Of a DNA stretch of 64,000 nucleotides, positions 5,024 through 23,790 are shown in pieces. The first letter of the stretch is position 1. Each line of letters opens with the position of its first letter. Source of the stretch: Haliotis asinina (taxonomy: Eukaryota; Mollusca; Gastropoda; Lepetellida; Haliotidae); assembly GCF_037392515.1 (NCBI RefSeq), contig NC_090291.1:26336001-26400000 (forward strand), read 5' to 3'. The translations under genes and the position numbers were made by a program. Under the pieces are notes generated by a model, which had not been told where the DNA came from, made no database searches, and saw only the letters and a program-made list of their open reading frames with translations.

Positions 5024-5108
5024 GAAACCTCAAACAAGACCTTTCATTGCAAGGGCTGTCCAGATCAGGCTAAGGATGCTCATCCCCTACATGGAACACT
5101 GGCCGCAG
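5024..5108 (+). CDS. COQ9: COQ9 coding exon (first in window)
   Basis: The acceptor is tttcttacacag and the donor CAG|gtaaca. The exon is 85 nt: one base completing a codon from the missing upstream exon, then 28 codons ending RLRMLIPYMEHWPQ in phase 0. This is the strongly conserved COQ9 segment before the lipid-pocket helices. It lies only about 330 bp after the right end of a DIRS element. Confidence 0.93.
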
Positions 5109-8100
5109 GTAACAGTCACTCATTCCTCCAGTAAACAATTATGTCATAGACATTCCCTCTGGATTATGTTTTCAGAATGGAAATGAAAAGTCATAGCTAT
5201 GGTATGCCTAAAGTGGTACACAGTTAACTCTCTGAGCTGTGACATCACAGCCTTGTTGAAAAACCTTCCATAAGTTTTCAGTATGGGCAACATACCTTAC
5301 AGAGTTGGAAGTGAAATTCAGTGTAGTTGGTATATAGTGTCACAGTGATCTTTGTTTGTCAATCAGATTGTTTATTTTGTGATTGTTTATTGTGGTTAAA
5401 TCACCTTATTGGACTTTGAATATTTTCTTGCCAAAATTTGCCATATCTAAAAGCAAGTGTTTTACAATCTCAAGGTTTATGGCAGATTAGGAACCCTACT
5501 CGCTCTCTGCCTCCAGCATTACTGGCCCTCTTTGTTCCCTTCAAAATAAAATCAAAACTTGGATAAATCAGCTGCTACTGCTAGTTACTTTTCTGGCATC
5601 ATTATCAGTTAATCAATTGTTTCATGAATTATGAGGCAGTATGATCATAGATATGCAGAGGCAACTTAATCAGGCAGAGATAATTAGCCAGCTGGATGTC
5701 AGCTGCATGGACTCCTATGACAGCAAGAACCTAGGCCACAAAGTGTTATCTATAGGCTGGTGTGATGCTGTACTTGGTAAAGTCAGGTGTGCCCCTCAGT
5801 CTGAAGGTGGTGGCTGATCCCCACGACAGAAGATGCAGAACGCTCCAAGCAGGAGGGACTGTGCCAACAGCTTCAATACAAGGCAGGATTTTCCCATGGC
5901 TTGAGTCACATGGTCCCTGCCTTCAGTCACTGGCACTGTTAACGGCTAATCCCACAAATAGAAATCCCACTAGGTCACCTACTATTTCTCTCATGGACAG
6001 GTCAGAGGTGGGATAGATAGATAGATAGATATGGAAGTCAAGGACTTGTCAGTGCTGTCCCAATTCGACAATCTGTTTCACATGCATTGTACAGGGAAGC
6101 TGTGGATATTCATCATCTGAGCCTTTTAAAAGTTTATAAAAGTTCACCTACAACTTCAGCAGCTATTCCAAGACCATGGTTCCCAGTGGATCTCTACACT
6201 GTACAGCTGACTACCATGTTCATGAGGCGGGGCAGCTTGGGTAGCACATGAATGTCCCTGTGCCCCAATGGGACCAGGTGACAGAGACGGGGCCCAACCT
6301 CCTATGGTCTCTGCATTTTATCAGCTCATTTGGAGGTGTATTTCTATCATCAGTTAAAGTTTTCATCGCACACTAATAGCATCAACCATTTGGCTGACTA
6401 CTGCTATCTATGTTGACATTGGCAAACTTGGTTGTAACGGCTGCTTAGCTGATTGTGGGAATGAGGAGCCAGCAAAGAGAGGTCGGGTCCAACCGTATGT
6501 GCACCAAAGGGATAGTGGAGATTTATCAAAACATTAACTCCGGAGAAATAAGGATGTATGAAGGTAGGTTCTTTAGAAATCAAGTGTGCCATTAGAAACA
6601 TACTGTAAGAATTCTCTGTGTCATGAGAAAATATAATTATCTTTTTATTTTTGCATGATTTCTGCAATCCCACAGTCATGAACAACATCGCTGGACAATT
6701 TAATCCCAAAATTGCCCAAACTAAAGACATAGCAGTCCTTGTCTAGGGTTTATGTTATCTGTGACAGGATGTTTCCTGCCAGTGATCAGGAAATTGATAG
6801 GGATTCTCACTATCCAAAACTCAAAATGATTCATTGAGAGATCAGGGATATAGACCATGCAGCTAGATCCTACATCGATATCCTTTCCTGGTTTTGTCTT
6901 GGGTGTCAGGCAGCTTTGTCCCCAAGGCTTGTAGGATTATATCTTTTCATGCAAGATAACGGCGTGGCCACATCAACCATAAGGGACGCTTGCACACTCC
7001 AGACTATTTCCGACATCAATCAATCTTATGTGAATGTGTTACATTGTTTTGACAGCTATAGAAACAATCTTGCCACTTGAGGGGAGTTTAAAATGACCAA
7101 GGTATTCTTCCATTGGGCTTGGCTACACCACAGGAAGACTATCATTCTAGCTACAAACAACCAGCAAGGGGGAACCAGGTTCAGATGACCAGACGACCCA
7201 ACACTTGACCTCGACAACAGACACCATGAAGTATCTTGTAAGAACTCACCATATCCCAGGCTGTATATACATTCTCACCATCTCACTCTCCAGACAGAAC
7301 TGAGTAATCTCCACGGAATGAACTCTGCAAAGGGGAGCTTTCAACTTATTCCAGAACCCTCAGTATCGGGGATGGATGCCATGTCCATATCTTGGGACAA
7401 CATGGTTGCATATGCCTTCCCTCTCTTATAGATGACATTTGAAGTATTGACATAGATATTTCCTCCCCACTACATGATGTACCCAGTGGCTCCAGCTTGG
7501 TCGACCAAGTCATGGTTCACCATCCTTCTTCATCTTTTGACAGACAAACCACTGCGTCTTCCACTATGGCACATTCTTCTCAGTCAGCTGATGTCAAGAA
7601 ATTGAAACAGTACTATAGAGGACTACAGATCTATTGCTTCTGTCTGTGATATACATGGATAAGCAGTAGGTTCTAACAGTCACTCCAGAATTCCCCTTAT
7701 GAACCTGTGCATCAAGCTTCACTGAAATGTGTATCCTTCAAGACAGTTTTTATGTTTGAACTAATATGAATTTGGTTCTATTCATTGTGTTCATCCCATA
7801 CAACAGGAGATGTTCTTTATCCACTTCTCCTCAAAAACTGCTGCACAAAACTCATTTATTTTACATATGTTTCTTATAGAGACTCAAAATGTGTGTCTCA
7901 TATTTTGAACTTATTTATTATATTATTATATCATTCTACATTATATAGTTTATTTGTATGTTTAGAGACATTTGAACTTAGATAAACTTTGTTTAATATC
8001 TCTCTAATGATAGTGATATAGGGGATGAAGTCTATCCACTTCTCCACAAAATCTTCTCAACAGAATTGATTAAGCTTATACATGTGTTTCATTATGACTC

Positions 8101-11100
8101 GAAAGGTCTGCATCTCATAGCTGCGTAGGTGTTTAATGAACTTGTTTAGTAGAATTAATCACTGAGTGTAGGGAATGCTTCCTACAGCAGCAGGGTCGTC
8201 CGTGTCCCTGGACACAGTGTTGTCTTGTTCTGCTTGCTGCATTCACTACGGCTTCCAGCCTGTCTCATAGACTTTAAATCAATCACCTTCATAGAACAGT
8301 ATAGACAGATGTCATGTAGAACTTGACCAGAATTTATTGCCATAAATCATGTTTTTGCTAGTGGCCATTTAGGCCAGAGAGTGTACCAGATACCTGCCTT
8401 ACCCTCCTCTGCCTCTAGAGCAGACAGAACTAGACTGCTCTGTCCTATCCTAGATCTGAGATGGTATACTCAACGTACTCTCAATATCAGATATAATTGC
8501 TGCTTGCTATATATTTTGTGCAAGTCAAATATGGGTACAGAGATCTCAAAATATACTGTCTCATCCTGGTTCAGACAGTCTGCCACTTAGTCTTCATCAG
8601 AGCTGTGACCTTGAGGTCATTGTCACTCCGTTCCAGTAGATCAGGTATTGCCATCCTAGCTATCTCCAGGGTATGGATTCCAATAAGTCTCCACTATACC
8701 CTTGATGCATCCATGTGTCAGCCCCGTCATTTTTTACCTCCCTTACCTGGCTTTTTATCCAATCAGATGTCTATGCAGGGAAGTTGAGCGAACCAATCAC
8801 ATCTCACTTTCACTTTTTATCAATTATCTGACCAATTAAACTTGGCAACACACACCATAAAGAGGTCCTCTTAAAGTGGTAGAAGTAGTTCTTGCATATA
8901 TCTTTTTAAAGTTTCAGTCCTATCAATTTGTGTGTATGATTTCCCAAAAATCTGAGTCACACTGCGAACAAACCTTTGCAGCTGTGACTGCTATCTGTGT
9001 TGACACTGGCATGTTCAGTTGTAGTGACAGCTTAGCTGATTGGTTACTATGAGAATGCAGAGCCAGGTAAGGGAGGTAATAAATTATCAGACCAACCTGT
9101 AGATGCATCCAGGGTATAGTGGAGAGTTATCGGAACGTATATCCTGGAGATATCGAAGATCAGGTATTGCAGGATACCAGTGGAAAATGTCCAATACATA
9201 CTCCACCTATTATTTGCAAGATGTCAGTCAATCCTCTGGGACCTCTGGTGGCAGCAGAGCATCTCACCTCCACCTGATTCCCCTTCCCCTTGCAGAGAGA
9301 CGTCTCTGACTTCATCTTGGACTGTGAGGGAGGAAACAGTAAATTGAAGAGTGAAGCTCTTTGAAGAATTTTATCCAGTAATATTTATCACTAGTTAGTG
9401 CATTTGGTATATCCTCTTAGGGTAGGATACAGCTTTTTGAGATAGGGGGCTGCACACTGTTGAGAAAGGGTACACACTTCATTTTCACCCGAGTTTAAAT
9501 GGTCATTTAACAAAATTTAAGGACAAATCAGGGGGTGTGCACCCCAGCAATTATTTAGATAGCCAATGTTATATATTGGTCAGCAAAGTCATCGCTATCC
9601 TAATAGAGACTATGGCGGTATAATTATTGGTATTCCTATATTCATCATGTGAGGACACACTCCTTTATATGGGATTGAGTCAGTCATAACATTTACAACA
9701 TATTTAGGAAAAATTACGTTCATTGTTAGCAATTGTTGCCACATGCAGCTATATTTTGCCACTTCCAATTCAGAAAAACTAACATCTAATGTGTTTTGAG
9801 TGAAGGTGATATAATACTTATCTCATATCTTTCCAAAACAGTTCCTAGTGTGGTGATCTACCTTCAGTTGTTGGCAATCCATAGCCCATTTTTATATTGT
9901 ATTGTCCACTATAGTTAAACTGTTTTAGATTCAATTGCTAGTCTTAAATGGATATCTGTGATACATATTAGTGGTTTTACTGTTCTTTGTCAACAGGGTT
10001 TTAGTTTCTTATATTTGTTCATTCTACAATGTCATTATTACTTGTTTTCGTCACAATATGCTGCAATATTGCCGATTGACGATAACTATTAACTCACTCA
10101 CTCACTCACTCACTCACTCACACACTTTCCAAAACAACATCCTGAATTGTGATATTATTGAGTGTATTTTCTTCTATGAACCTTAAGGTAACTTTTTATG
10201 TCACTTATTCTGATACATTTTCTTCATTTTTATCCCCCCAGCATGTTAGAGGATATAATCGACGCCTCATCCATCCCTCAGAAATAATTTCGTTTCTGCA
10301 GTATAACTCAAAAAACGTTCAGTGATTTTAGACCTATAATTGATAGATACAGTAATATGAAGCTATGGTTGTGCCTTTTCTTATTTACAGATTTTTGGCA
10401 TTTTTATTTTTTTTTGTTCTTCCATTGAACGTTTCGGACATAGTCTCCAAATGGAGGAATGGGCTTCGTTTCCAGAGCACAACAATATTTAATGTCTTTC
10501 AGCAAAACTTGGCAGATATTTGTTGCAGACCAAAAGTGGTGTCTTTGGCTATTTACAAAGTTTTGACATTTTTATTTTTCCCGGTTTCCATGGAAAGAGA
10601 CCCGTGAAGGTCGCGGGTAGAATAGGCCTTCAGCAAACCATGCTTGCCATAAAAGGCGACTGTGCTTGTCGTAAGAGGCGACTAACGGGATCGGGTGGTC
10701 AGGCTCACTGACTTGATTGACACATGTCATCGGTTCCCAGTTGTGCAGATCGATGCTCATGTTGTTGATCACAGGATTGTCTGATCCTGACTCAATTATT
10801 TACAGACCGCCGCCATATAGCCTGTATTTTGCTGAGGGCAGCGTAAAACTAAACTCACTCACTCACTCCATGGAAACAATTCAGACATAGTCTCAAAATG
10901 GAGGGAGGGCTTCGTTTCCAGCGCACAACTCGAAGATTTGATATCTTTCAACAGATCTTGGCAGATATATGAGACAGATCTCTAAGTGGTCCCTTTTGCT
11001 GTTTACAGACATATGGCATTTATATTTTTCATGATTTACATGGAAAAGATTCAAACTTAGTCTAAAAAAATGTCAAGCAACTGTCAGATGATTTGTCCTT

Positions 11101-14100
11101 TCAAATATGTTGGGGCCAGGGGGCTATGTCTTCTTCTGATGACTCTTGTTTCTCAGTTTAGTGCTTCCGTCTCTCTCATTAGCATTTTCCGTGTTTGCTT
11201 TGCATGATACATATGCTGTGTTTAACCAGGGTCAAGCTGGCAAAGCAGCTCTTCATCTTTCATTACATATGTATTCCTGTTTTAGGCTATGGCTATGCAA
11301 GCGCTACCCCAGAACGCAAAGGAGTCATGGTGTAACCTAGCCACTCTCACCGATGACATTTGGTATCATGTTGGAGATCGATCAACAGATGTAAGGACCA
11401 TTGTTTCTTAGTCTTACTCTTTCTTCACCTTTCTTTCACCTTGGTAAAGTCCACCTTCTCTTCACCATATGTCCTTTCTGACACTATAGTTCACCTGACA
11501 CCATATGTCCTTTCTGACACTATAGTTCACCTGACACCATACGTCCCTTCTGACACTATAGTTCACCTGACACCATATGTCCTTTCTGACACTTCCATTC
11601 ACCTGACACCATATGTCCTTTCTGACACTGCAGTTCACCTGACACCAATGTCCTTTCTGACACTGCCGTTCAGCTGACCCCATATGTCCTTTCTGACTCG
11701 ATAGTTCATCTGACACCAATGTCCTGTCTGACACTGTAGTCCACTTGGAACCATTTGTTCTGTCTGACACTGTAGTCAACTTGAAACCATTTGTCCGTTC
11801 TGATGATGTAGTTCACCTGACACCATATGTCCTGTCTGAAACTGTAGTTCACCTGACACCATTTGTACTGTCTATCATTGTAGTTTAACTGGTACACAAA
11901 ACGGGCATCCCTGGCAGCAGTGTACAAGGCCACAGAGATCTTCATGATCCAAGATCGGTCGGAGGATTACACAGACACCTGGGCCTTCCTAGACAGACGC
12001 TTGAATAATGTAGCAGCCTTTGGCAAAACAGTAAAAAATGTGAGTCATCGGTCATTTCTTTTCAGTCATCATAAGGGCATATATAAAAGTATGAAAAGAT
12101 CAGATCGTAGAAACAAAACCAGTATGCTCTATTTAGATGTGGTGCAAATAGTAAGTGCTGTTGTATGTAGGTGTGATGCAGTTAGTGAAAGTGTTGTTGT
12201 GTGTAGGTGTTGTGCAGATAGTGAAAGTGGTGTTGTATGTAGGTGCAGTTCAGATGGTGAAATTGGTGTTGTATGTAGTTGTAGTGCAGATAAGTAAAAG
12301 TGATATATGTAGGTGTAAACAGATAGTACAAGTGGTAATGCAGATAGTGAAAGTGATGTATGAAAGTGTAGTGCAGATAGTGAAATTGGTGTTGTATGTA
12401 GTTGTAGAACAGATACTGAAAGTGTTGTATACAGATGTAGTGCAGATAGTGAAAGTGTTTTATGTAAGTGTAGTGCAGATAGTGAAAGTTGTTGTATGCA
12501 GGTGTTGTGCAGATAGTGAAAATGTTGCGTGGAGAAGTTGTGCAGATAGTGGAAGTATTGTGTGCAGGTGTCAAGAATAGAATCATTTGTGTTGGCCGTT
12601 ACATTTTGATTGTGCATTGAAATTATTCAAAAGCTTATAATTAGACACACACTAACTGCCAAAAGAAACGTTACCCTCCTTCCTTAAAGAATTTCATGAA
12701 ATCTACTCAGTGAACTTTCTGCTACATTTTGATGCATGGACACCCACTTTCAAGGTCTCTCTGTAGCACTGGATAAGTCTTATAACCATGTGGCATCTGA
12801 GGGCATTGTCAACAGAAAACTGACCCCAAAATCCGCTTCCATTCATCTCCTTTATTCATGGTATAAGTCACAGACAGTTACACTGCTGATGGTTGGTAGT
12901 ACAAAAATTGACCAAAATGACCCAACAGAAAATGTCTCTTACAATCAGCTTGCATGTGCAAGTACTGGACAAACCAAAACCAGGTATCAACACTGGTGTG
13001 ACAAACCGTCTGCACAGTCCTAAGAGAAAAATATGTAAAGGTTTCACTGTCACTTGTGGCAGCACAAACAGCATTGTATGGCAACCCCCCCATCTACTAC
13101 ATCCCATTGGCTTTTTCTCTCTCTTCAGCTGTTAATTATGACATATTTCTCGTGCTTGTGCATCAGATCACACTTTCTAGGTGCTCTTTATACCCTGTAG
13201 AATCATTCAACATGATAAATTGAAGTGAATACTGCTTGAATGTTTCTGTTTTGGCAATTGATATTACTATGTGTAAACAGAGTCAGTGAGTTAAGGTTTA
13301 CACCACACTCATCAATATTCCAGCTATATGGCAGCAGTGTGAAAACAGAAAATAGAAAAGTGTTACTTTGCAAGTGAAAAGGTTGCGAAAGATAATTTCA
13401 AGAGTTCCTAAACACTTCTTCACAATATCAAAGACATATTTTTGAAAGACTGAAATCATAGGAATAATTCTCTTTTACAATTTGACAAACTCTACCACAG
13501 TTGCTTCTTGCTTTAATAGTTGGAAAATGGTGACATTAAATAGTTTATCTTTGTCTCAAAGCAGAATTTTATTTTAACCTTCCTTTTGGACATCTAAATC
13601 ACTGCTATTGGTTTATTTTTGCATTTTCAAAAATAGTACATTTTAATCCTCTGAAAAAGGTGCATTTTACCTAAAGACAAATGTGTTTGAGAACATTTTT
13701 CATGATTTGCACAAAGCTGTGTTGTTAAGCTGTCATGTAAACTAATGCCTTATAACATATCTTTGATAATTTTTAAATAATTCATGGTGGGTAAGATATC
13801 TTTTGGCATTTTGTGTATATAACCTTAGTGGTTACAAATGTTAAATCAACTGTTTATTTAAGTGCAATCTTCATAGTTCATTCTGCCTCTAAAGTCTTAA
13901 CTAGGAGGATGACTTTGTGTGCTGATAAACAGATGCCTGACTGAGGGTGTGGGTTCAAATCCCTGATGGGACTCAACCCAACAAAAGTACTGGAATCAGT
14001 ACTTTACAGACAAAGTAATATCCTAGATATTTCATATGTTACATTATCTCCTCTGCTTCAGTATTACCTGCCTGGCCCTTGCATCATACAGCTGCTTTAT

Positions 14101-17100
14101 CTGTTGTTGATACACTCAGAGCCTCTGTTTGCTCAAAATATTTTTTTCTACTTTGTTGGCACATTCAATCAACAAATCTGAATCGGCTTCATCATCTACG
14201 AACTATGATGCCATTTCAGCAGCAGCAAATTGAACATATGAGCAACCATCTGGAGGCAGCATTGGTGGAAATCACAGTCACATGCAATTTGGGGTAATTG
14301 ACCTTGTCGAATTGGGAATCAGAGTTCAAACAATGTCTGCTATGTCAACCTTGGTCAGCTACATCCCTATTTCATGGCGAAGTGTCTAATACTCACTCGC
14401 GGGTATCTGCTCATGCTTATGATGAAATGGCTCTGAAAGCCTTGGAACAAGTGTCAAAGAATTCAGCACTTAAGGTTTCTAGGACAGGAAATTATCAACC
14501 TAGGCATTCCTTCCTGCAACCCCATTCTAGCCAGCTCTTCCAGGGTAGAGGTCATGAGAGAGGGAAACACGCTGGGAACTATGAACCCTGCCGGGACAGG
14601 AGTTCAGGTAGAGAGAAATCCCGGAGAGGTAAACAATGAAGTTTTGGACCGCAGCGAGTGGGAACTCCCACCTGATGTTAGGAGACCAGTTTGTCGTCAA
14701 CATTCTCCATCACGATTATCAACTATCACTGATAGACAATCCTCCATTAACAGTCTCACGCTATGTGGAGGTTTATCCCTCAAACCAACTGCAAATCTTG
14801 TTGCAATATCAACATTATGTTACACAAGAGGGCTATAGAGGTGGTGCAAGGGCCATTGTTGACACCAAGGTTTTGATTTTTCTGCTATTTTTGATTCCCC
14901 TAAAGGACTCCGACAAGTTCAGAATGATGCACAATTTAACGTTACCTGGAACCTCATTTTCAAATGACTACATTGAACATGCCGAGAACCAGAATCAGAC
15001 CCCATGACTGCCTGATCTAGACTTCTGGAATACATATTTGCATGTGCCGATCCACCCCAGAGACAGGCATTTCCGCAGGTTCATTTTCAGTGGTGTCCAT
15101 TACCAATGGGCAGTACCCCTTTTTGGAATGTCTTCAGCCCCTTGGCTTTTCACACGAATAAACAAACCCATAGCACCTTCCTACACTTGAGGAACATCCA
15201 ATTTGATTCTTACATCAACGACTGTCTCCTCAATCAGCAACATCACAGGGGATTTCACCAGGTGCCTACTTCATCAGCTTGGGTGGATTGCTAATGAGCA
15301 GAAGTCTTGCACACTCCAGTCCTTACTGGACTGAATCTGAATCTTGTCTCTTCATCAGATCTTACTGGCTCCATTCATCAGGAAACAGGATCAATTAGTT
15401 TCCATCACGCTACCATCCCACCTCAAGCGGTATCTTCAGTGGTGGAGGATTGAGTGGAATATCTTAGGCGGTGTCTCTGTGACCGAGTAAACATCCACTG
15501 AATGTCTATACTACGCCGCGTCTGTCCACGGTTGGAGAGCCCATCTCGACGGAGAGATGGTTTCTCCGCAGTGGTCCGCCAATCTCAGCCAGTGGCATAT
15601 CAACAGTTTGGAATTGGAGGCAGTGATTCTGGCTGTGTCTCATTGGTCTTCAGCATTTCGTCAGACGTCTCCATGGTGGCCTGGTGTCTTCACAACCAAG
15701 AAACGACCCACTCTCCATCTTTGCTACGCTAGACTTTTCAGTTTTTTCTTCTGGTATAACGCCTGGACCTGAAATTCATCATCCAACTCACTCCTGGTTG
15801 CAGGAACATTCCGCCGGACGATCAATCCAAACCGGACAGGTTGGTGCCCACAGAGTTGATGCTACACACAGAAGCGTTCGCCATTGATTGGCACCATCTC
15901 AGTCATCCCAACATAGATTTGTTTGTCACCAGTCAGAATTGCCAGATCTGAACCTACATATTACCGATTCAGGATCCTCAAGCTAGGTAGTGTACACAGT
16001 CAGCGTTTTTGGGGAAAACCTGAGCGTGTACACTTTTTCTACAGAAGCACTTCTCTCCAGGGTTCTCAACAAAATCAGGGATATTCATCATTGCCTTGCT
16101 CTGATTTTGATCGCACCTTGGTGGCCAACAAGATCTAAGAAAGCTTGTCCCCCATGATCCTCTAGAGCTACCACACTGGCCAAATCTACTGGTGCACCCA
16201 CAAAGCAGGTAACCGCATCCGGCTCCAGGTCAGTTTCATCTGCATGCCTGGTTTATTTGCAAAGGGCATTGAGTGCATAGGGGTATTCCACATAGACCAT
16301 CTACTCGTGGGTTATATGATGACAAATGGAGGTCCTTTTGAAGTTTTTGCAGGGATAAACATCAGGATGCGATGTCTGCATCCCGTCAATTCTTTGCTGA
16401 ATTTCTTCTGTTTTTGCGTTCTTGTAGACACCTCAGGGGCAGTACCATTATGACGTATTTGGTGGTCCTGAATTTGGTCCTAAGGACAGGAAGATGTCCA
16501 AGATTCCAGAATTGCAAGACTTGTTGCAGTCTTTCAGTCTTGAGGGCCAAGTTTAGGTCTTCTGTCTAGGACCAGACTGTGGTGCTTCGTTTATTGCCAC
16601 AGAAACCATTTGAACCTCTTCATGCTACTTTGTTTTACATCCTCACTAAGAAGACATTTTTTCTCCTAGCACTGGCTACGGCAACTAGGGTGAGTGAACT
16701 ACATGCTCTTGATGTCACCTGGGTTCTGTGATATGGTGATGTGTGGTTGGTGAAGGTGCTGCTGAATGGCAATGTGTTGTTGGAGAAGTTGTTGCTTAAT
16801 GGTGTTGGTGAAGGTACTGCTGAATGGCGATGTGTAGTTGGTGAAAGTGCTGCTGAATGGTGATGTTTAGTTGGTGAAGGTGCTGCTGAATGATGATGTT
16901 TAGTGAAGTTGTTGCTTAATGGTGTTGGTGAAGGTACTGCTGAATGGCATGTGTAGCTGGTGAAAGTGCTGCTGAATGGTGATGTTTAGTTGGTGAAGGT
17001 GTTGCTGAATGGCGATGTGTTGTTGGTGAAGTTGTTGCTCTAATGGCGTTTGTGAAGGTGCTGCTGAATAGTGATGTGTAGTTGGTGAAAGTGCTGCGGA

Positions 17101-20100
17101 ATGGCGATGTATTGTTTGTGAAAGTGCTGCTGAATGGCGATGTGTTGTTGGTGAAAGTGCTGGTGAATGGCAATGTGTAGTTGTGAAGGTGCTGCTGAAT
17201 GGTGATGTGTAGTTGGTGAAAGTGCTGCTGAATGGCGATGTGTTGTTGTGAAGGTGCTGCTCAATGGCGATGTGTAGTTGTGAAAGTGCTGCTGAATGGC
17301 GATGTGTTGTTGGTGAAAGTGCTGGTGAATGGCGATGTGTTGTTGGCAAAAGTGCTGGTGAATGGCGATGTGTTGTTGGCAAAAGTGCTGCTGAATGGCG
17401 ATGTGTTGTTGGTGAAAGTGCTGGTGAATGGCGATGTGTAGTTGTGAAAGTGCTGCTGAATGGTGATGTGTTGTTGGTGAAGTTGCTGCTGAATGGTGAT
17501 GGTTAGTTGGTGAAAGTGCTGCTGAATGGCGATGTCTGGTTGGTGAAAGTGCTGCTGAATGGTGGTCTGTTGTTGGTGAAGGTACTGCTGAATGGTGATG
17601 TGAAGTTAGTGAAGGTGCTGGTGAATGGTGATGTTTAGTCAGTGGAGGTGTTGCTGAAAGATGAATCGCTGAATAGTGAATCACATTTCCTCCATGTCCA
17701 CTCATCAGTGTGCAACTATGGGCATACCCTGTTACATTGCAGATGGAACAGTTCACTTCTGTGATGTCTGAAGGCTTGCTGGGGATGTATATTGTGGTAA
17801 GCATCACCCCATTCATTTATTTATATATCACCATGTATATTTTGGTTAGTGTCATTTTTCCATTCTATATTAAATACCTTTCTAGTGATTCCATTAGCTT
17901 ACATCCTGTCACTATTACAGGGAAAGAACATACTGGGCATGTGCTGTATCCTGTGTGTATTACAGGGAAGGAACGTACTGGGCATGTGCTATATCCTGTC
18001 TGTATTACAGGGAAGGAACGTACTGGGCATGTGCTATATTCTGTCTGTATTACAGGGAAGTAATATGCTGGGCATGTGCTATATCCTGTCTGTATTACAG
18101 GGAAGGAACGTACTGGGCATGTGCTATAACCTGTCTGTATTACAGGGAAGTAATATGCTGGGCATGTGCTATATCCTGTCTGTATTACAGGGAAGGAACG
18201 TACTGGGCATGTGCTATATCCTGTCTGTATTACAGGGAAGTAATATGCTGGGCATGTGCTATATCCTGTCTGTATTACAGGGAAGGAACGTACTGGGCAT
18301 GTGCTATAACCTGTCTGTATTACAGGGAAGGGACATACTGGGCATGTGCTATATCCTGTCTGTATTACAGGGAAGTAATATGCTGGGCATGTGCTATATC
18401 CTGTCTGTATTACAGGGAAGGAACGTACTGGGCATGTGCTATATCCTGTCTGTATTACAGAGAAGAAACATACTGGGCATGTGCTATATCCTGTCTGCAT
18501 TACAGGGAAGGGACATACTGGGCATGTGCTATATCCTGTCTGTATTACAGGGAAGGAACGTACTGGGCATGTGCTATATCCTGTCTGTATTACAGGGAAG
18601 GGACATACTGGGCATGTGCTATGTTCTGTCTGAATTACAGGGAAGGAACGTACTGGGCATGTGCTATATCCTGTCTGTATTACAGGGAAGGGACATACTG
18701 GGCATGTGCTATGTTCTGTCTGAATTACAGGGAAGGAACGTACTGGGCATGTGCTATATCCTGTCTGTATTACAGGGAAGGGACATACTGGGCATGTGCT
18801 ATATCCTGTCTGTATTACAGGGAAGGGACATACTGGGCATGTGCTATGTTCTGTCTGTATTACAGGGAAGGAACGTACTGGGCATGTGCTATATCCTGTC
18901 TGTATTACAGGGAAGGGACATACTGGGCATGTGCTATGTTCTGTCTGTATTACAGGGAAGGAACGTACTTGGCATGTGCTATATCTTGTCTGTATTACAG
19001 GGAAGGAACGTACTGGGCATGTGCTATATCCTGTCTGTATTACAGGGAAGGAACGTACTGGGCATGTGCTATATCCTGTCTGTATTACAGGGAAGGGACA
19101 TACTGGGCATGTGCTATATCCTGTCTGTATTACAGGGAAGGAACATACTTGGTATGTGCTATATCCTGTCTGTATTACAGGGAAGGAACGTACTGGGCAT
19201 GTGCTATATCCTGTCTGTATTACAGGGAAGGAACGTACTGGGCATGTGCTATATCATGTCTGTATTACAGGGAAGGGACATACTGGGCATGTGCTATGTT
19301 CTGTCTGTATTACAGGGAAGGAACGTACTTGGCATGTGCTATATCCTGTCTCTATTACAGGGAAGGAACGTACTGGGCATGTGCTTTATCCTGTCTGTAT
19401 TACAGGGAAGGAATATACTGGGCATGTGCTATATCCTGTCTGTATTACAGGGAAGGAACGTACTGGGCATGTGCTATGCCCTGTCTGTATTACAGGGAAG
19501 GAACGTACTGGGCATGTGCTATATCCTGTCTGTATTACAGGGAAGGAACGTACTGGGCATGTGCTATATCCTGTCTGTATTACAGGGAAGGGACATACTG
19601 GGCATGTGCTATGTTCTGTCTGAATTACAGGGAAGGAACGTACTGGGCATGTGCTATATCCTGTCTGTATTACAGGGAAGGGACATACTGGGCATGTGCT
19701 ATGTTCTGTCTGAATTACAGGGAAGGAACGTACTGGGCATGTGCTATATCCTGTCTGTATTACAGGGAAGGGACATACTGGGCATGTGCTATATCCTGTC
19801 TGTATTACAGGGAAGGGACATACTGGGCATGTGCTATGTTCTGTCTGTATTACAGGGAAGGAACGTACTGGGCATGTGCTATATCCTGTCTGTATTACAG
19901 GGAAGGGACATACTGGGCATGTGCTATGTTCTGTCTGTATTACAGGGAAGGAACGTACTTGGCATGTGCTATATCTTGTCTGTATTACAGGGAAGGAACG
20001 TACTGGGCATGTGCTATATCCTGTCTGTATTACAGGGAAGGAACGTACTGGGCATGTGCTATATCCTGTCTGTATTACAGGGAAGGGACATACTGGGCAT

Positions 20101-23100
20101 GTGCTATATCCTGTCTGTATTACAGGGAAGGAACATACTTGGTATGTGCTATATCCTGTCTGTATTACAGGGAAGGAACGTACTGGGCATGTGCTATATC
20201 CTGTCTGTATTACAGGGAAGGAACGTACTGGGCATGTGCTATATCATGTCTGTATTACAGGGAAGGGACATACTGGGCATGTGCTATGTTCTGTCTGTAT
20301 TACAGGGAAGGAACGTACTTGGCATGTGCTATATCCTGTCTCTATTACAGGGAAGGAACGTACTGGGCATGTGCTTTATCCTGTCTGTATTACAGGGAAG
20401 GAATATACTGGGCATGTGCTATATCCTGTCTGTATTACAGGGAAGGAACGTACTGGGCATGTGCTATGCCCTGTCTGTATTACAGGGAAGGAACGTACTG
20501 GGCATGTGCTATATCCTGTCTGTATTACAGGGAAGGAACGTACTGGGCATGTGCTATATTCTGTCTGTATTACAGGGAAGGAATATACTGGGCATGTGCT
20601 ATATCCTGTCTGTATTACAGGGAAGGAACGTACTGGGCATGTGCTATATCCTGTCTGTATTACAGGGAAGGAACGTACTGGGCATGTGCTATATCCTGTC
20701 TGTATTACAGGGAAGGAACGTACTGGGCATGTGCTTTATCCTGTCTGTAGTACAGGGAAGGAATGTACTGGGCATGTGCTATATTCTGTCTGTATTACAG
20801 GGAAGGAACGTACTGGGCATGTGCTATATTCTGTCTGTATTACAGGGAAGGAACGTACTGGGCATGTGCTTTATCCTGTCTGTATTACAGGGAAGGAACG
20901 TACTGGGCATGTGCTATATCCTGTCTGTATTACAGGGAAGGAACGTACTGGGCATGTGCTATATTCTGTCTATATTACAGGGAAGGAACGTACTGGGCAT
21001 GTGCTATATTCTGTCCGTATTACAGGGAAGGAACGTACTGGGCATGTGCTTTATCCTGTCTGTAGTACAGGGAAGGAACGTACTGGGCATGTGATATATC
21101 CTGTCTGTATTACAGGGAAGGGACATACTGGGCATGTGCTATGTTCTGTCTGAATTACAGGGAAGGAACGTACTGGGCATGTGATATATCCTGTCTGTAT
21201 TACAGGGAAGGAACGTACTGGGCATGTGCTATATCCTGTCTGTATTACAGGGAAGGAACATACTGGGCATGTGCTATATCCTGTCTGTAGTACAGGGAAG
21301 GAACGTACTGGGCATGTGCTATATCCTGTCTGTATTACAGGGAAGGAACGTACTGGGCATGTGCTTTATCCTGTCTGTAGTACAGGGAAGGAACGTACTG
21401 GGCATGTGCTATATCCTGTCTGTATTACAGGGAAGGGACATACTGGGCATGTGCTATATCCTGTCTGTAGTACAGGGAAGGAACGTACTCGGCATGTGCT
21501 TTATCCTGTCTGTATTACAGGGAAGGAATGTACTGGGCATGTGCTATATTCTGTCTGTATTACAGGGAAGGAACGTACTGGGCATGTGCTTTATCCTGTC
21601 TGTATTACAGGGAAGGAACGTACTGGGCATGTGCTATATTCTGTCTGTATTACAGGGAAGGAACGTACTGGGCATGTGCTATATTCTGTCTGTATTACAG
21701 GGAAGGAATATACTGGGCATGTGCTATATCCTGTCTGTATTACAGGGAAGGGACATACTGGGCATGTGCTATATTCTGTCTGTATTACAGGGAAGGAACG
21801 TACTGGGCATGTGCTATATCCTGTCTGTATTACAGGGAAGGAATATACTGGGCATGTGATATATCCTGTCTGTATTACAGGGAAGGGACATACTGGGCAT
21901 GTGCTATATCCTGTCTGTATTACAGGGAAGGGACGTACTGGGCATGTGCTATATCCTGTCTGTATTACAGGGAAGGGACATACTGGGCATGTGCTATATT
22001 CTGTCTGTATTACAGGGAAGGAACGTACTGGGCATGTGCTATATTCTGTCTGTATTACAGGGAAGGAACGTACTGGGCATGTGCTTTATCCTGTCTGTAT
22101 TACAGGGAAGGAACGTACTGGGCATGTGCTATATCCTGTCTGTATTACAGGGAAGGAACGTACTGGGCATGTGCTATATTCTGTCTATATTACAGGGAAG
22201 GAACGTACTGGGCATGTGCTATATTCTGTCCGTATTACAGGGAAGGAACGTACTGGGCATGTGCTTTATCCTGTCTGTAGTACAGGGAAGGAACGTACTG
22301 GGCATGTGATATATCCTGTCTGTATTACAGGGAAGGGACATACTGGGCATGTACTATATTCTGTCTGTATTACAGGGAAGGAATATACTGGGCATGTGCT
22401 ATATCCTGTCTGTATTACAGGGAAGGGACATACTGGGCATGTGCTATATCCTGTCTGTATTACAGGGAAGGAACGTACTGGGCATGTGCTATATCCTGTC
22501 TGTATTACAGGGAAGGAACGTACTGGGCATGTGCTATATTCTGTCTGTATTACAGGGAAGGAATATACTGGGCATGTGCTATATCCTGTCTGTATTACAG
22601 GGAAGGGACGTACTGGGCATGTGCTATATCCTGTCTGTATTACAGGGAAGGAATGTACTGGGCATGTGCTATATTCTGTCTGTGTTACAGGGAAGTAATA
22701 TGCTGGGCATGTGCTATATCCTGTCTGTATTACAGGGAAGGAATGTACTGGGCATGTGCTATATTCTGTCTGTATTACAGGGAAGGAACGTACTGGGCAT
22801 GTGCTATATTCTGTCTGTATTACAGGGAAGGAACGTACTGGGCATGTGCTATATTCTGTCTGTATTACAGGGAAGGAACGTACTGGGCATGTGCTATATC
22901 CTGTCTGTATTACAGGGAAGGGACGTACTGGGCATGTGCTATATTCTGTCTGTATTACAGGGAAGGAACGTACTGGGCATGTGCTATATCCTGTCTGTAT
23001 TACAGGGAAGGAACGTACTGGGCATGTGCTATATCCTGTCTGTATTACAGGGAAGGGACATACTGGGCATGTGCTATGTTCTGTCTGTATTACAGGGAAG

Positions 23101-23494
23101 GAACGTACTGGGCATGTGATATATCCTGTCTGTATTACAGGGAAGGAACGTACTGGGCATGTGCTATATTCTGTCTGTATTACAGGGAAGGAACATACTG
23201 GGCATGTGCTATATCCTGTCTGTATTACAGGGAAGGGACGTACTGGGCATGTGCTATATTCTGTCTGTATTACAGGGAAGGAACGTACTGGGCATGTGCT
23301 ATATCCTGTCTGTATTACAGGGAAGGAACGTACTGGGCATGTGCTTTATCCTGTCTGTATTACAGGGAAGGGACATACTGGGCATGTGCTATATCCTGTC
23401 TGTATTACAGGGAAGGAACGTACTGGGCATGTGCTATATTCTGTCTGTATTACAGGGAAGGAACATACTTGGTATGAACTCCAGAAACCGGTGA
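5024..23494 (+). CDS. COQ9: COQ9, ubiquinone biosynthesis lipid-binding protein (3' five coding exons, 5' end outside window)
   Basis: Joining 5024-5108, 11286-11390, 11884-12039, 17743-17796 and 23456-23494 gives one open frame of about 145 codons ending in TGA. It follows the C-terminal half of animal COQ9: RLRMLIPYMEHWPQ, then LTDDIWYHVGDRSTD, then FNWYTKRASLAAVYKATEI, then TDTWAFLDRRLNN, a short helix, and NILGMNSRNR at the stop. COQ9 is a mitochondrial matrix protein with a TetR-like fold that binds lipid and presents ubiquinone precursors to the hydroxylase COQ7; its last helix is amphipathic and touches the membrane. The transit peptide and N-terminal exons must lie before position 1, because a DIRS retrotransposon fills 37-4693. 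Introns are inflated by transposons and tandem arrays. The final splice acceptor is embedded in a 124-copy array, so the true 3' end of the mRNA may vary. I am confident of the family and exon borders; the array's effect is inference. Confidence 0.93.
5109..6397. other. COQ9 intron, no recognised feature except a GATA microsatellite
   Basis: No coding or transposon signal recognised. A short (GATA)n run lies at 6012-6031. Confidence 0.5.
6398..6556 (+). mobile_element. Partial copy of the 9-bp-TSD MITE family
   Basis: Matches the right half of the MITEs at 8652, 48688 and 59983: TGCTATCTATGTTGACATTG, then GCTTAGCTGATTG, GAGCCAGCAAAG, and a degenerate terminal repeat GGATAGTGGAGATTTATC to AAGGATG. 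The left half is absent. Confidence 0.6.
6770..7640 (+). mobile_element. Decayed DIRS-type retrotransposon fragment (copy D)
   Basis: Translations in shifting frames show RNase H/linker motifs of DIRS-like elements: ATNNQQGGTR (about 7153-7182), HHIPGCIYILTISLSRQN (about 7246-7300), EWTLQRGAFN, MDAMSISWDNMVAYAFP (about 7372-7422) and APAWSTKSWFTILLHLL (about 7492-7542). No intact frame and no terminal repeats are visible. It lies in the intron before the COQ9 exon at 11286. Confidence 0.6.
7641..8637. other. COQ9 intron, nothing recognised
   Basis: AT-rich sequence. No exon, RNA gene or repeat relationship recognised by eye. Confidence 0.4.
8652..9161 (+). mobile_element. MITE with long terminal inverted repeats and 9-bp target duplication (copy 1)
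   Basis: The left terminus CATCCTAGCTATCTCCAGGG and right terminus (complement CTTCGATATCTCCAGGATAT) are about 60-bp inverted repeats including CCACTATACCC and GATGCATC. The flanks carry AGGTATTGC on both sides (8643-8651 and 9162-9170). No transposase is encoded. Long terminal repeats plus 9-bp target duplications are typical of Mutator-like elements. Confidence 0.8.
9845..10125 (+). repeat. Dispersed repeat with (ACTC)n tail
   Basis: Shares TGGTGATCTACCTTCAGTTG, TAGCCCA and a late TATTGCCGAyyTGACGAT block followed by TAACTCACTCACTC with 41305-41520. The ACTC tail resembles the SINE tails in this window. It may be another short retroposon; boundaries are approximate. Confidence 0.55.
10210..11150 (+). 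repeat. Element with ~180-bp internal tandem units (copy 1, about 3 units)
   Basis: Units contain GTGCCTTTTGCTATTTACAG, GGTTTCCATGGAAA, TCTCAAAATGGAGGGATGGG, GCTTCGTTTCCAGAGCACAA and AAAACTTGGCAGATAT. The same lead-in (TTTATCCC...AGTCGAAGCC-like) and the same lead-out (GATTTGTCCTTTCAAATATG, TCTTCTGATGACTCTTGT) flank the copy at 60.9-62.5 kb. A SINE has inserted at 10597-10867. The class is unknown. Confidence 0.75.
10597..10867 (+). mobile_element. SINE, ACTC-tail family, near full length
   Basis: Starts GAGACCCGTGAAGGTCGCGG, contains CGACTAACGGGATCGGGTGG, TTGTTGATCACAGGATTGTC, ATTATTTACAGACCGCCGCC and ends GCGTAAAACTAAACTCACTC. It is flanked by the 9-bp direct repeat CCATGGAAA (10588-10596 and 10868-10876), showing target-site duplication inside a unit of the ~180-bp-repeat element. 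Confidence 0.88.
11286..11390 (+). CDS. COQ9: COQ9 coding exon
   Basis: The acceptor is cctgttttag and the donor GAT|gtaagg. It has 105 nt, 35 codons, phase 0 on both sides. The translation ends LTDDIWYHVGDRSTD, matching the conserved DDxWxxxGDxSTD segment of COQ9. It is preceded by an intron of about 6.2 kb (5109-11285) holding MITEs, a DIRS remnant and the ~180-bp-unit element. Confidence 0.95.
11454..11897 (+). repeat. 36-bp tandem array ending at a COQ9 splice acceptor
   Basis: Units read like ATATGTCCTTTCTGACACTA then TAG then TTCACCTGACACC. AG-equivalent positions fall at 11489, 11525, 11561, 11597, 11633, 11668, 11704, 11739, 11775, 11811 and 11847, and the real exon acceptor is next at 11883, exactly in register. 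The repeat part after AG (TTCACCTGACAC) resembles the exon start (TTTAACTGGTACAC). Some units have lost AG (near 11597 and 11668). In the COQ9 frame these units contain TGA, so they would not extend the protein. Confidence 0.88.
11884..12039 (+). CDS. COQ9: COQ9 coding exon
   Basis: The acceptor is ctatcattgtag and the donor AAT|gtgagt. It has 156 nt, 52 codons, phase 0. The start FNWYTKRASLAAVYKATEI and the later TDTWAFLDRRLNN are diagnostic of COQ9. The acceptor is the last of a 36-bp tandem series of acceptor-like sequences. Confidence 0.95.
12130..12575 (+). repeat. 33-bp intronic minisatellite
   Basis: Imperfect tandem units around GTGCAGATAGTGAAAGTG and TTGTATGTAGGTGTA, period about 33 bp with several indels, starting about 90 bp after the donor at 12040. 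Open frames on both strands here come from the repeat and are not genes. Confidence 0.9.
12586..13270. other. COQ9 intron, nothing recognised
   Basis: The short open frames here on both strands overlap one another and match nothing I recognise. Confidence 0.4.
13275..13350 (-). mobile_element. SINE (ACTC-tail family) 3' fragment
   Basis: Complement of the SINE 3' end: GTCAGTGAGTTAAGGTTTAC, CACTCATCAATATTCCAGCT, ATATGGCAGCAG. Confidence 0.6.
13351..13895. other. COQ9 intron, nothing recognised
   Basis: AT-rich, no motif recognised. Confidence 0.4.
13896..14060 (+). mobile_element. tRNA-derived SINE, diverged copy
   Basis: Contains ATGACTTTGTGTGCTG, a B-box-like GGTTCAAATCC and GATGGGACTCAACC, collinear with the better copy at 38571. 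The 5' A-box half is damaged. Confidence 0.65.
14170..16735 (+). mobile_element. Decayed DIRS-type retrotransposon (copy B), broken at the 33-bp array
   Basis: In shifting + frames the DIRS order can be read. A gag-like basic tail (SRGREKSRRGKQ-type) ends at 14637. Reverse transcriptase pieces follow (LDFWNTYLHVPIHPRDRHF and FSGVHYQWAVPLFGMSSAPW, about 15018-15140). RNase H is HGWRAHLDGEMVSPQWSANL with INSLELEAVILAVSHWS (15529-15650). The recombinase core has LLPQKPFEPLHATL and FFLLALATATRVSELHALD (16590-16715) with the conserved arginine region. The recombinase C-terminus is missing: the 33-bp array starts at about 16738. No terminal repeats were found, and stops and frameshifts are frequent. 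Confidence 0.78.
16738..17660 (+). repeat. 33-bp intronic minisatellite
   Basis: About 28 imperfect units of GAATGGCGATGTGTTGTTGG plus TGAAAGTGCTGCT, period 33 bp. It begins where the DIRS copy at 14.2-16.7 kb breaks off and ends about 80 bp before the COQ9 exon at 17743. Open frames on both strands (up to 258 codons on the - strand) are repeat artefacts. Confidence 0.92.
17743..17796 (+). CDS. COQ9: COQ9 coding exon (penultimate)
   Basis: The acceptor is gttacattgcag and the donor GTG|gtaagc. It has 54 nt, 18 codons, phase 0, translating MEQFTSVMSEGLLGMYIV. By position it corresponds to the start of the last amphipathic helix of COQ9. It is short, but phase, order and both splice sites fit the flanking exons. 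Confidence 0.85.
17897..23476 (+). repeat. 124-copy 45-bp array of the COQ9 last-exon splice acceptor
   Basis: Each unit is TGCTATATCCTGTCTGTATT plus ACAG, then GGAAGGAACGTACTGGGCAT plus G. The first 24 bp match the end of the short natural intron (ttacatcctgtcactattacag at 17899-17920) and the next 21 bp match the start of the last exon. Exon-like starts fall at 17921 and, 5,535 bp later, at 23456; 5,535 is exactly 123 x 45, so there is no net indel. The unit has no stop in any + strand frame, which is why long open frames cover it. In the COQ9 frame it reads CYILSVLQGRNVLGM. In-frame TGA, from TGC to TGA, occurs at 21092, 21182, 21857, 22307 and 23117. Variants (GGACATACT, AGTAATATG, GTAGTACAG, ATGTTCTG) recur in blocks, showing higher-order duplication. 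Confidence 0.97.
23456..23494 (+). CDS. COQ9: COQ9 last coding exon (canonical C-terminus)
   Basis: The acceptor is ctgtctgtattacag. Twelve codons GRNILGMNSRNR and TGA follow in the phase left by the penultimate exon, and resemble the LKNLTGLN-type COQ9 end. The first seven codons belong to the last 45-bp array unit; only the following NSRNR and stop are unique. The same acceptor-plus-GRNVLGM motif occurs 123 times upstream, the first at 17921 (GKNILGM). Confidence 0.88.
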   Translation, partial: GRNILGMNSRNR

Positions 23495-23790
23495 TATCCC
23501 TCAGCAGACAAACAGGACATCTGGACCATCACAAGCACACTTGATGTCACAGATGTCCATAAACTTCTGTACGTCTTCAGTAGACAAATAATGTCAACTG
23601 TTCTTTTGATGTTAGTTTTGGTAAACTTTTATGTTGAAGAGCTGCCATGTACATTGTACAAGATTGAATTTTTTTTAATGTTACTGTGTATATAAACAAT
23701 AATAATTGTTAATAAAACAAATATTAAATGTATGTCATATTTGGCTTCATACAAGAATGAGGTATCAATAAAGAAAGTGTGATGCTCCGG
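23495..23790 (+). other. COQ9: COQ9 3' UTR with polyadenylation signals
   Basis: Non-coding sequence after the COQ9 stop. Two AATAAA hexamers are visible at 23711-23716 and 23767-23772, so cleavage is expected around 23,730 or 23,790. The end is inferred from the hexamers only. Confidence 0.6.

Follow-up and report, generated by a model that had tools for sequence, protein, structure and literature searches.

The window analysed here is a 64,000-nt stretch of the Haliotis asinina genome (contig 12, positions 26336001-26400000 of the 1.14-Gb assembly), and it carries the gene COQ9, three exons of which lie upstream of the window itself. Exon joining on the assembly gave a COQ9 coding frame of eight exons with AG/GT borders and a single ORF of 265 aa, in which the start of the first exon is uncertain. 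Over the query, this frame is 100% identical to a 280-residue database protein, the predicted H. asinina COQ9 isoform X2, and, over residues 37-263, it matches chains of human COQ9 whose structure is known, with an E-value of 1.5e-63. A profile search with PF08511 returned one match across the whole assembly, the exon at 11884; thus, the search revealed no further COQ9 copy able to stand in for the array-bearing gene. The features of the locus are as follows.

L009 6099?-6193, 6991-7103 and 8527-8677: three COQ9 exons upstream of the window
5024..5108, forward strand: COQ9 exon KPQTRPF...EHWPQ
11286..11390, forward strand: COQ9 exon AMAMQ...RSTD
11463..11895, forward strand: second acceptor-boundary array, 12 units of 35-36 bp (24+12 nt), the last unit being the true acceptor and the first 12 nt of exon 11884-12039
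11884..12039, forward strand: COQ9 exon FNWYTKR...KTVKN
16733..17658, forward strand: minisatellite of 33 bp x 29 in the intron before exon 17743, stopping 84 bp short of the exon, so that the boundary is not spanned
17743..17796, forward strand: penultimate COQ9 exon MEQFTSVMSEGLLGMYIV, with donor GTAAGC
17797..17896, forward strand: first part of the last COQ9 intron, of unique sequence
17897..23476, forward strand: array of 124 units x 45 bp, each with 24 bp of intron end and 21 bp of exon start
18527..19561, forward strand: units 15-37, identical in sequence to units 37-59 (19517-20551)
21092..23119, forward strand: five in-array TGA stops in the exon frame (units 71, 73, 88, 98 and 116; the first at 21092, the last at 23117)
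23456..23494, forward strand: last COQ9 coding exon GRNILGMNSRNR and stop, its first 21 nt being the exon part of unit 124
23711..23716, forward strand: poly(A)-signal-like hexamer (AATAAA or ATTAAA) 3' of the last exon

The acceptors of the array lie at 17921+45n (n = 0..123), the first and the last being separated by 23456-17921 = 5535 = 123 x 45 bp. The consensus 45-bp unit reads TGCTATATCCTGTCTGTATTACAG up to the acceptor and GGAAGGAACGTACTGGGCATG after it, and the exon-like start is preceded by ACAG in every one of the 124 units. The first acceptor follows exon 17743-17796 at a distance of 124 nt (17797-17920), and unit 124 continues into AACTCCAGAAACCGGTGA, which encodes NSRNR and the stop. 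An earlier note on this DNA had placed 124 copies of a 24+21-bp boundary unit at 17897-23476, at the last exon of COQ9, with the first unit adjoining a 124-nt intron and the last reading into NSRNR and a stop. Our analysis agrees on each of these points, and on an abalone as the source, given the strict 45-bp register, the two ends found where the note had put them, and the identity of the eight-exon frame to the named Haliotis asinina protein.

Tandem Repeats Finder reported the array at 17903-23476 with a score of 9671, far above chance. When a 401-bp piece was used to search the 1.14-Gb assembly, in a DNA search that skips very common words, all 35 matches listed fell on the COQ9 array of contig 12. 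The 124 units comprise 40 distinct sequences with a mean pairwise identity of 93.7%. The 23-unit run shared by units 15-37 and 37-59 points to a recent duplication of 22 units (990 bp). In a comparison of homogenisation inside the cluster with that at the cluster boundary, unit 1 differed from the consensus at 8 of 45 positions, more than any other unit, and unit 124 at 4, fewer than some inner units. The identical run and the aberrant unit 1 fit tandem-repeat turnover.

All 124 acceptors share one frame, because 45 is a multiple of three. By computation, a transcript spliced at any of acceptors 117-123 would keep the normal COQ9 C-terminus, with 15-105 extra residues in frame before it. From acceptors 1-116, the frame ends at the TGA of unit 71, 73, 88, 98 or 116; from the first acceptor, at 17921, it stays open across 70 units and would add 1057 residues. 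None of the three forward frames of the consensus unit contains a stop, however, so the open frame of the array is no evidence for coding. We considered selection on the open frame and rejected it, in view of this general openness and of the five inner units with TGA in the exon frame. Selection on the acceptor was likewise considered: ACAG is invariant, yet so many unit positions are invariant (21 of 45) that nothing special is shown.

A second boundary array, beyond the feature described in the earlier note, precedes the exon at 11884. Tandem Repeats Finder reported it as a 36-bp minisatellite at 11463-11885, with the true acceptor of exon 11884-12039 at its end. Its 12 units, aligned on the acceptor from 11490 to 11884, repeat the same boundary, with the AG kept in 10 of them. 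This array is more diverged than the 124-unit array. The exon part of the 11 upstream units matches at 7.6 of 12 positions on average, a level reached by 0.13% of the 12-mers of the window and by none of 367 12-mers from COQ9 exons. All 11 upstream copies run into an early stop, which comes at codon 3 in ten of them and after 11 codons in the other; COQ9 therefore needs the exon-adjacent copy. Further upstream, a small array of 33 bp x 3.7 (L009 8342-8467), with an acceptor-like TTCACAG in its unit, lies 59 bp before the acceptor of exon L009 8527-8677 and is possibly an old boundary array.

Tandemly repeated intron-exon boundaries, termed mirages, have been described in globin, Adh, TnC and PGBD5 genes of amphioxus, namely BflGb6, BflGb9, Adh3, TnC and PGBD5 (PMC3087553, PMC3902484). 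The BflGb6 mirage is described as a 3' intron end plus a 5' exon part in 3 and 6 units of 150-160 bp; many mirage units retain splice signals, there is turnover within the cluster, and the mirages reportedly leave regular splicing undisturbed and yield no aberrant mRNAs (PMC3087553, PMC3902484). On the donor side, the VNTR in intron 18 of human ABCA7 is described as a 25-bp unit in 12 to about 427 copies, each including the exon 18 donor; it is polymorphic in people, its length alters the skipping of exon 19, and a single unit is sometimes retained (PMC5954066).

As these mirages are described, they share with the COQ9 arrays a minisatellite-like repeat that straddles the intron-exon boundary, with splice signals kept in many units. 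The units of both COQ9 arrays span that boundary (24+21 nt and 24+12 nt), their lengths of 45 bp and 35-36 bp are minisatellite-like by the published range of 10-160 bp, and many carry their splice signal (ACAG in 124/124; AG in 10/12). The differences are of size, position and evidence: 124 x 45 bp at a terminal exon and 12 x ~36 bp, in a mollusc, compared with the 6 and 3 units of BflGb6; and the amphioxus mirages are, by these accounts, known with RT-PCR, whereas the COQ9 arrays are known from genomic sequence and a predicted protein. Turri et al. in 1995 reportedly described a minisatellite that supplies donor sites in human IFI6/G1P3 (6-16), two downstream repeat units being used. Like IFI6, COQ9 has a minisatellite carrying multiple splice sites for its own transcript, and like the ABCA7 VNTR, as described, its array is large, adjoins an exon and has a splice site in each unit. 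Those two repeats carry the 5' splice site, however, whereas the COQ9 unit carries the acceptor.

The view of the earlier note that the array is undescribed in kind therefore has to be given up: BflGb6 has the same arrangement, and ABCA7 has 12-427 donor copies (PMC3087553, PMC3902484, PMC5954066). The COQ9 array is an extreme within an already known kind, that of stuttered splice sites, and is unusually large on the acceptor side. With it, mirages are known from a mollusc as well as from lancelets, and the array is ~20 times longer than the published acceptor-side example of 6 units, as that example is described. Neither an acceptor-side array near 124 units nor a molluscan mirage turned up in searches of an open-licence literature library, a scope outside which most subscription papers fall.

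The array is probably a mirage-type minisatellite that is intronic and spliced out, the exon-adjacent acceptor at 23456 being the one used; this reading draws on genomic sequence and on predicted proteins. The predicted H. asinina COQ9 reads ...GLLGMYIV followed by GRNILGMNSRNR, a reading that links exon 17743-17796 to the last acceptor. This protein, isoform X2, is a gene prediction and the one sequence examined from a cluster of 3; a COQ9 form with a short tail in steps of 15 aa could be among the remaining sequences of that cluster. Among the 60 of 120 protein ends inspected, that of Physella acuta, GRNILGMNSRNR, has the same last 12 residues. The COQ9 of H. rufescens ends GRNILGLNSRHR, with 10 of the last 12 residues as in H. 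asinina.

A short stretch across the boundary between the last COQ9 intron and its exon would have been duplicated in tandem and would have grown to 124 units through slippage or unequal exchange. The units lie upstream of the single copy that is still joined to the remaining exon. Most likely, the spliceosome joins 17796 to 23456, and the other 123 copies leave as a 5.66-kb intron. Terminal exons are defined by the terminal acceptor together with 3'-end formation, and we infer that terminal-exon definition is the selector. The exon-adjacent copy would be used because no other copy has, within 300 bp, both unique exon sequence and a poly(A)-like hexamer (the one at 23711); further such hexamers are found at 23723, 23767 and 24442. 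Should splicing indeed use the last acceptor of 124 that are nearly identical, the core acceptor sequence cannot decide, and the context must, be it exon definition, the poly(A) site or distance. The COQ9 array would then make acceptor scanning and exon definition testable against each other in a natural single-copy gene, with 45 nt per ladder step. The earlier note had spoken of more than a hundred competing copies of the acceptor. The number stands, at 124, but competition is probably too strong a word, since the predicted protein uses the last acceptor and the second array works only via its last.

RNA structure was also considered as a selector of the last copy. The hairpin CCUGU...ACAGG forms in most units, at -5.2 kcal/mol in the commonest 68 and -2.4 in the last; folding of 180 nt of the array gave a z of -2.6. 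The seven array units tested all had a mostly paired AG, as did exon 17743, and structure was rejected as the selector. The short hairpin CCTGT...ACAGG can form around each acceptor (17905-17921 and every later unit) and may bear on slippage, not on splicing.

If instead many of the acceptors were used, COQ9 mRNA would form a ladder in 45-nt steps. The shared frame would allow this, as would the ACAG of all 124 units and the pyrimidine tracts, which are alike in the seven units inspected, and IFI6 is said to use repeat units as donors. The next copy is also described as being used occasionally in ABCA7, with a single unit retained (PMC5954066). Against such a ladder, a repeat-bearing COQ9 form was not found in three protein database searches, the amphioxus mirages are reportedly without aberrant mRNAs (PMC3087553, PMC3902484), and the unit leaves each of the three frames open. 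One of these searches, with a 493-aa query (COQ9 and 16 units), had 102 proteins reaching E <= 1e-60, among which the sole H. asinina row covers 53% of the query, the COQ9 part; in this search and in that with the 265-aa COQ9, scoring was limited to the 8000 candidates sharing most words. On balance, we consider a ladder unlikely.

The length of the array rests on one assembly, and an assembly artefact, or an array that is much shorter in reality, might be suspected. Such an artefact is hard to reconcile with 40 distinct units in a single strict 45-bp register with a duplicated block inside, with a single 58-Mb contig that is free of N over the 293 kb joined around the array, or with a second, independent boundary array in COQ9 and others elsewhere in the genome. 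The assembly does contain the 124-unit array, and we regard the artefact explanation as quite improbable.

Simple scanning for AG would favour the first acceptor, as the best branch-point-like motif (CTTAC, yUnAy-like, with its A at -20) lies just inside unit 1 and none is present in the last unit; at -45..-15, yUnAy occurs in 12 of the 124 units, the last not among them. Use of the acceptor at 17921 would give a 124-nt intron and a frame open over 70 units, but it would replace the normal end of COQ9 with a repetitive tail of 1057 residues and is very improbable indeed, as the predicted protein has the canonical C-terminus, the last-exon residues are conserved across gastropods, the second COQ9 array requires its own last acceptor, and a protein search with the 1057-aa repeat ORF gave 185 candidates, none at E <= 0.001.

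An acceptor-side de novo filter over the 293 kb around COQ9 yielded three candidates, the exon at 11884 and two that were unconfirmed. On the donor side, the same 293 kb gave seven rows, none convincing, and no boundary overlap was accepted among the neighbouring minisatellites, 11 of 30 arrays having been checked by flank. Elsewhere in the genome, we sampled mitochondrial-carrier genes, the 79 listed matches being reduced to 26 exon loci and 29 exon stretches that were picked by hand, with intronless-looking genes left out. Exon-edge arrays were found in two cases, one at a splice boundary (L041) and one at an apparent CDS end (L034 and L053), and the remaining stretches of the 29 had none. 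The first, on contig 2 (L041 805-941), is a small donor-side array of 56 bp x 2.5, in which the first two copies repeat GCTGGAGAGACTCAAAAT followed by GTAAGG, or 18 nt of exon end plus the donor; we infer the position of this putative donor from the frame and from later carrier matches on the same contig. The second, on contig 16 (L034 727-1101, continued in L053), is an array of 62 bp x 14.7 that begins 25 nt before the in-frame stop and extends downstream.

Tentatively, and with somewhat less than even confidence, minisatellites may arise in H. asinina by a recurrent process in which the edges of exons, be they acceptors, donors or coding ends, are amplified. Introns and 3' regions would thereby grow outward from exon borders, and COQ9, with its 12 and 124 acceptor copies, would be an extreme product. 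If this is true, COQ9 offers a natural test of whether an acceptor is picked beside a definable exon or by scanning from the branch point.

Three minor observations were made along the way. A weak duplication across a carrier-exon end and its donor (L043 249-298, minus strand; 22 bp x 2.3, 76%) failed the exon-edge array test. An array of 44 bp x 63 on contig 12 (L018 2363-5150, or 26462363-26465150), with no adjoining exon identified, has a 22-bp half-unit with a donor-like CTGTAAGTAT. In a COQ9 intron, at window positions 14948-15168, a weak RVT_1 match (E 0.008, below the cut-off) looks like a decayed retroelement.
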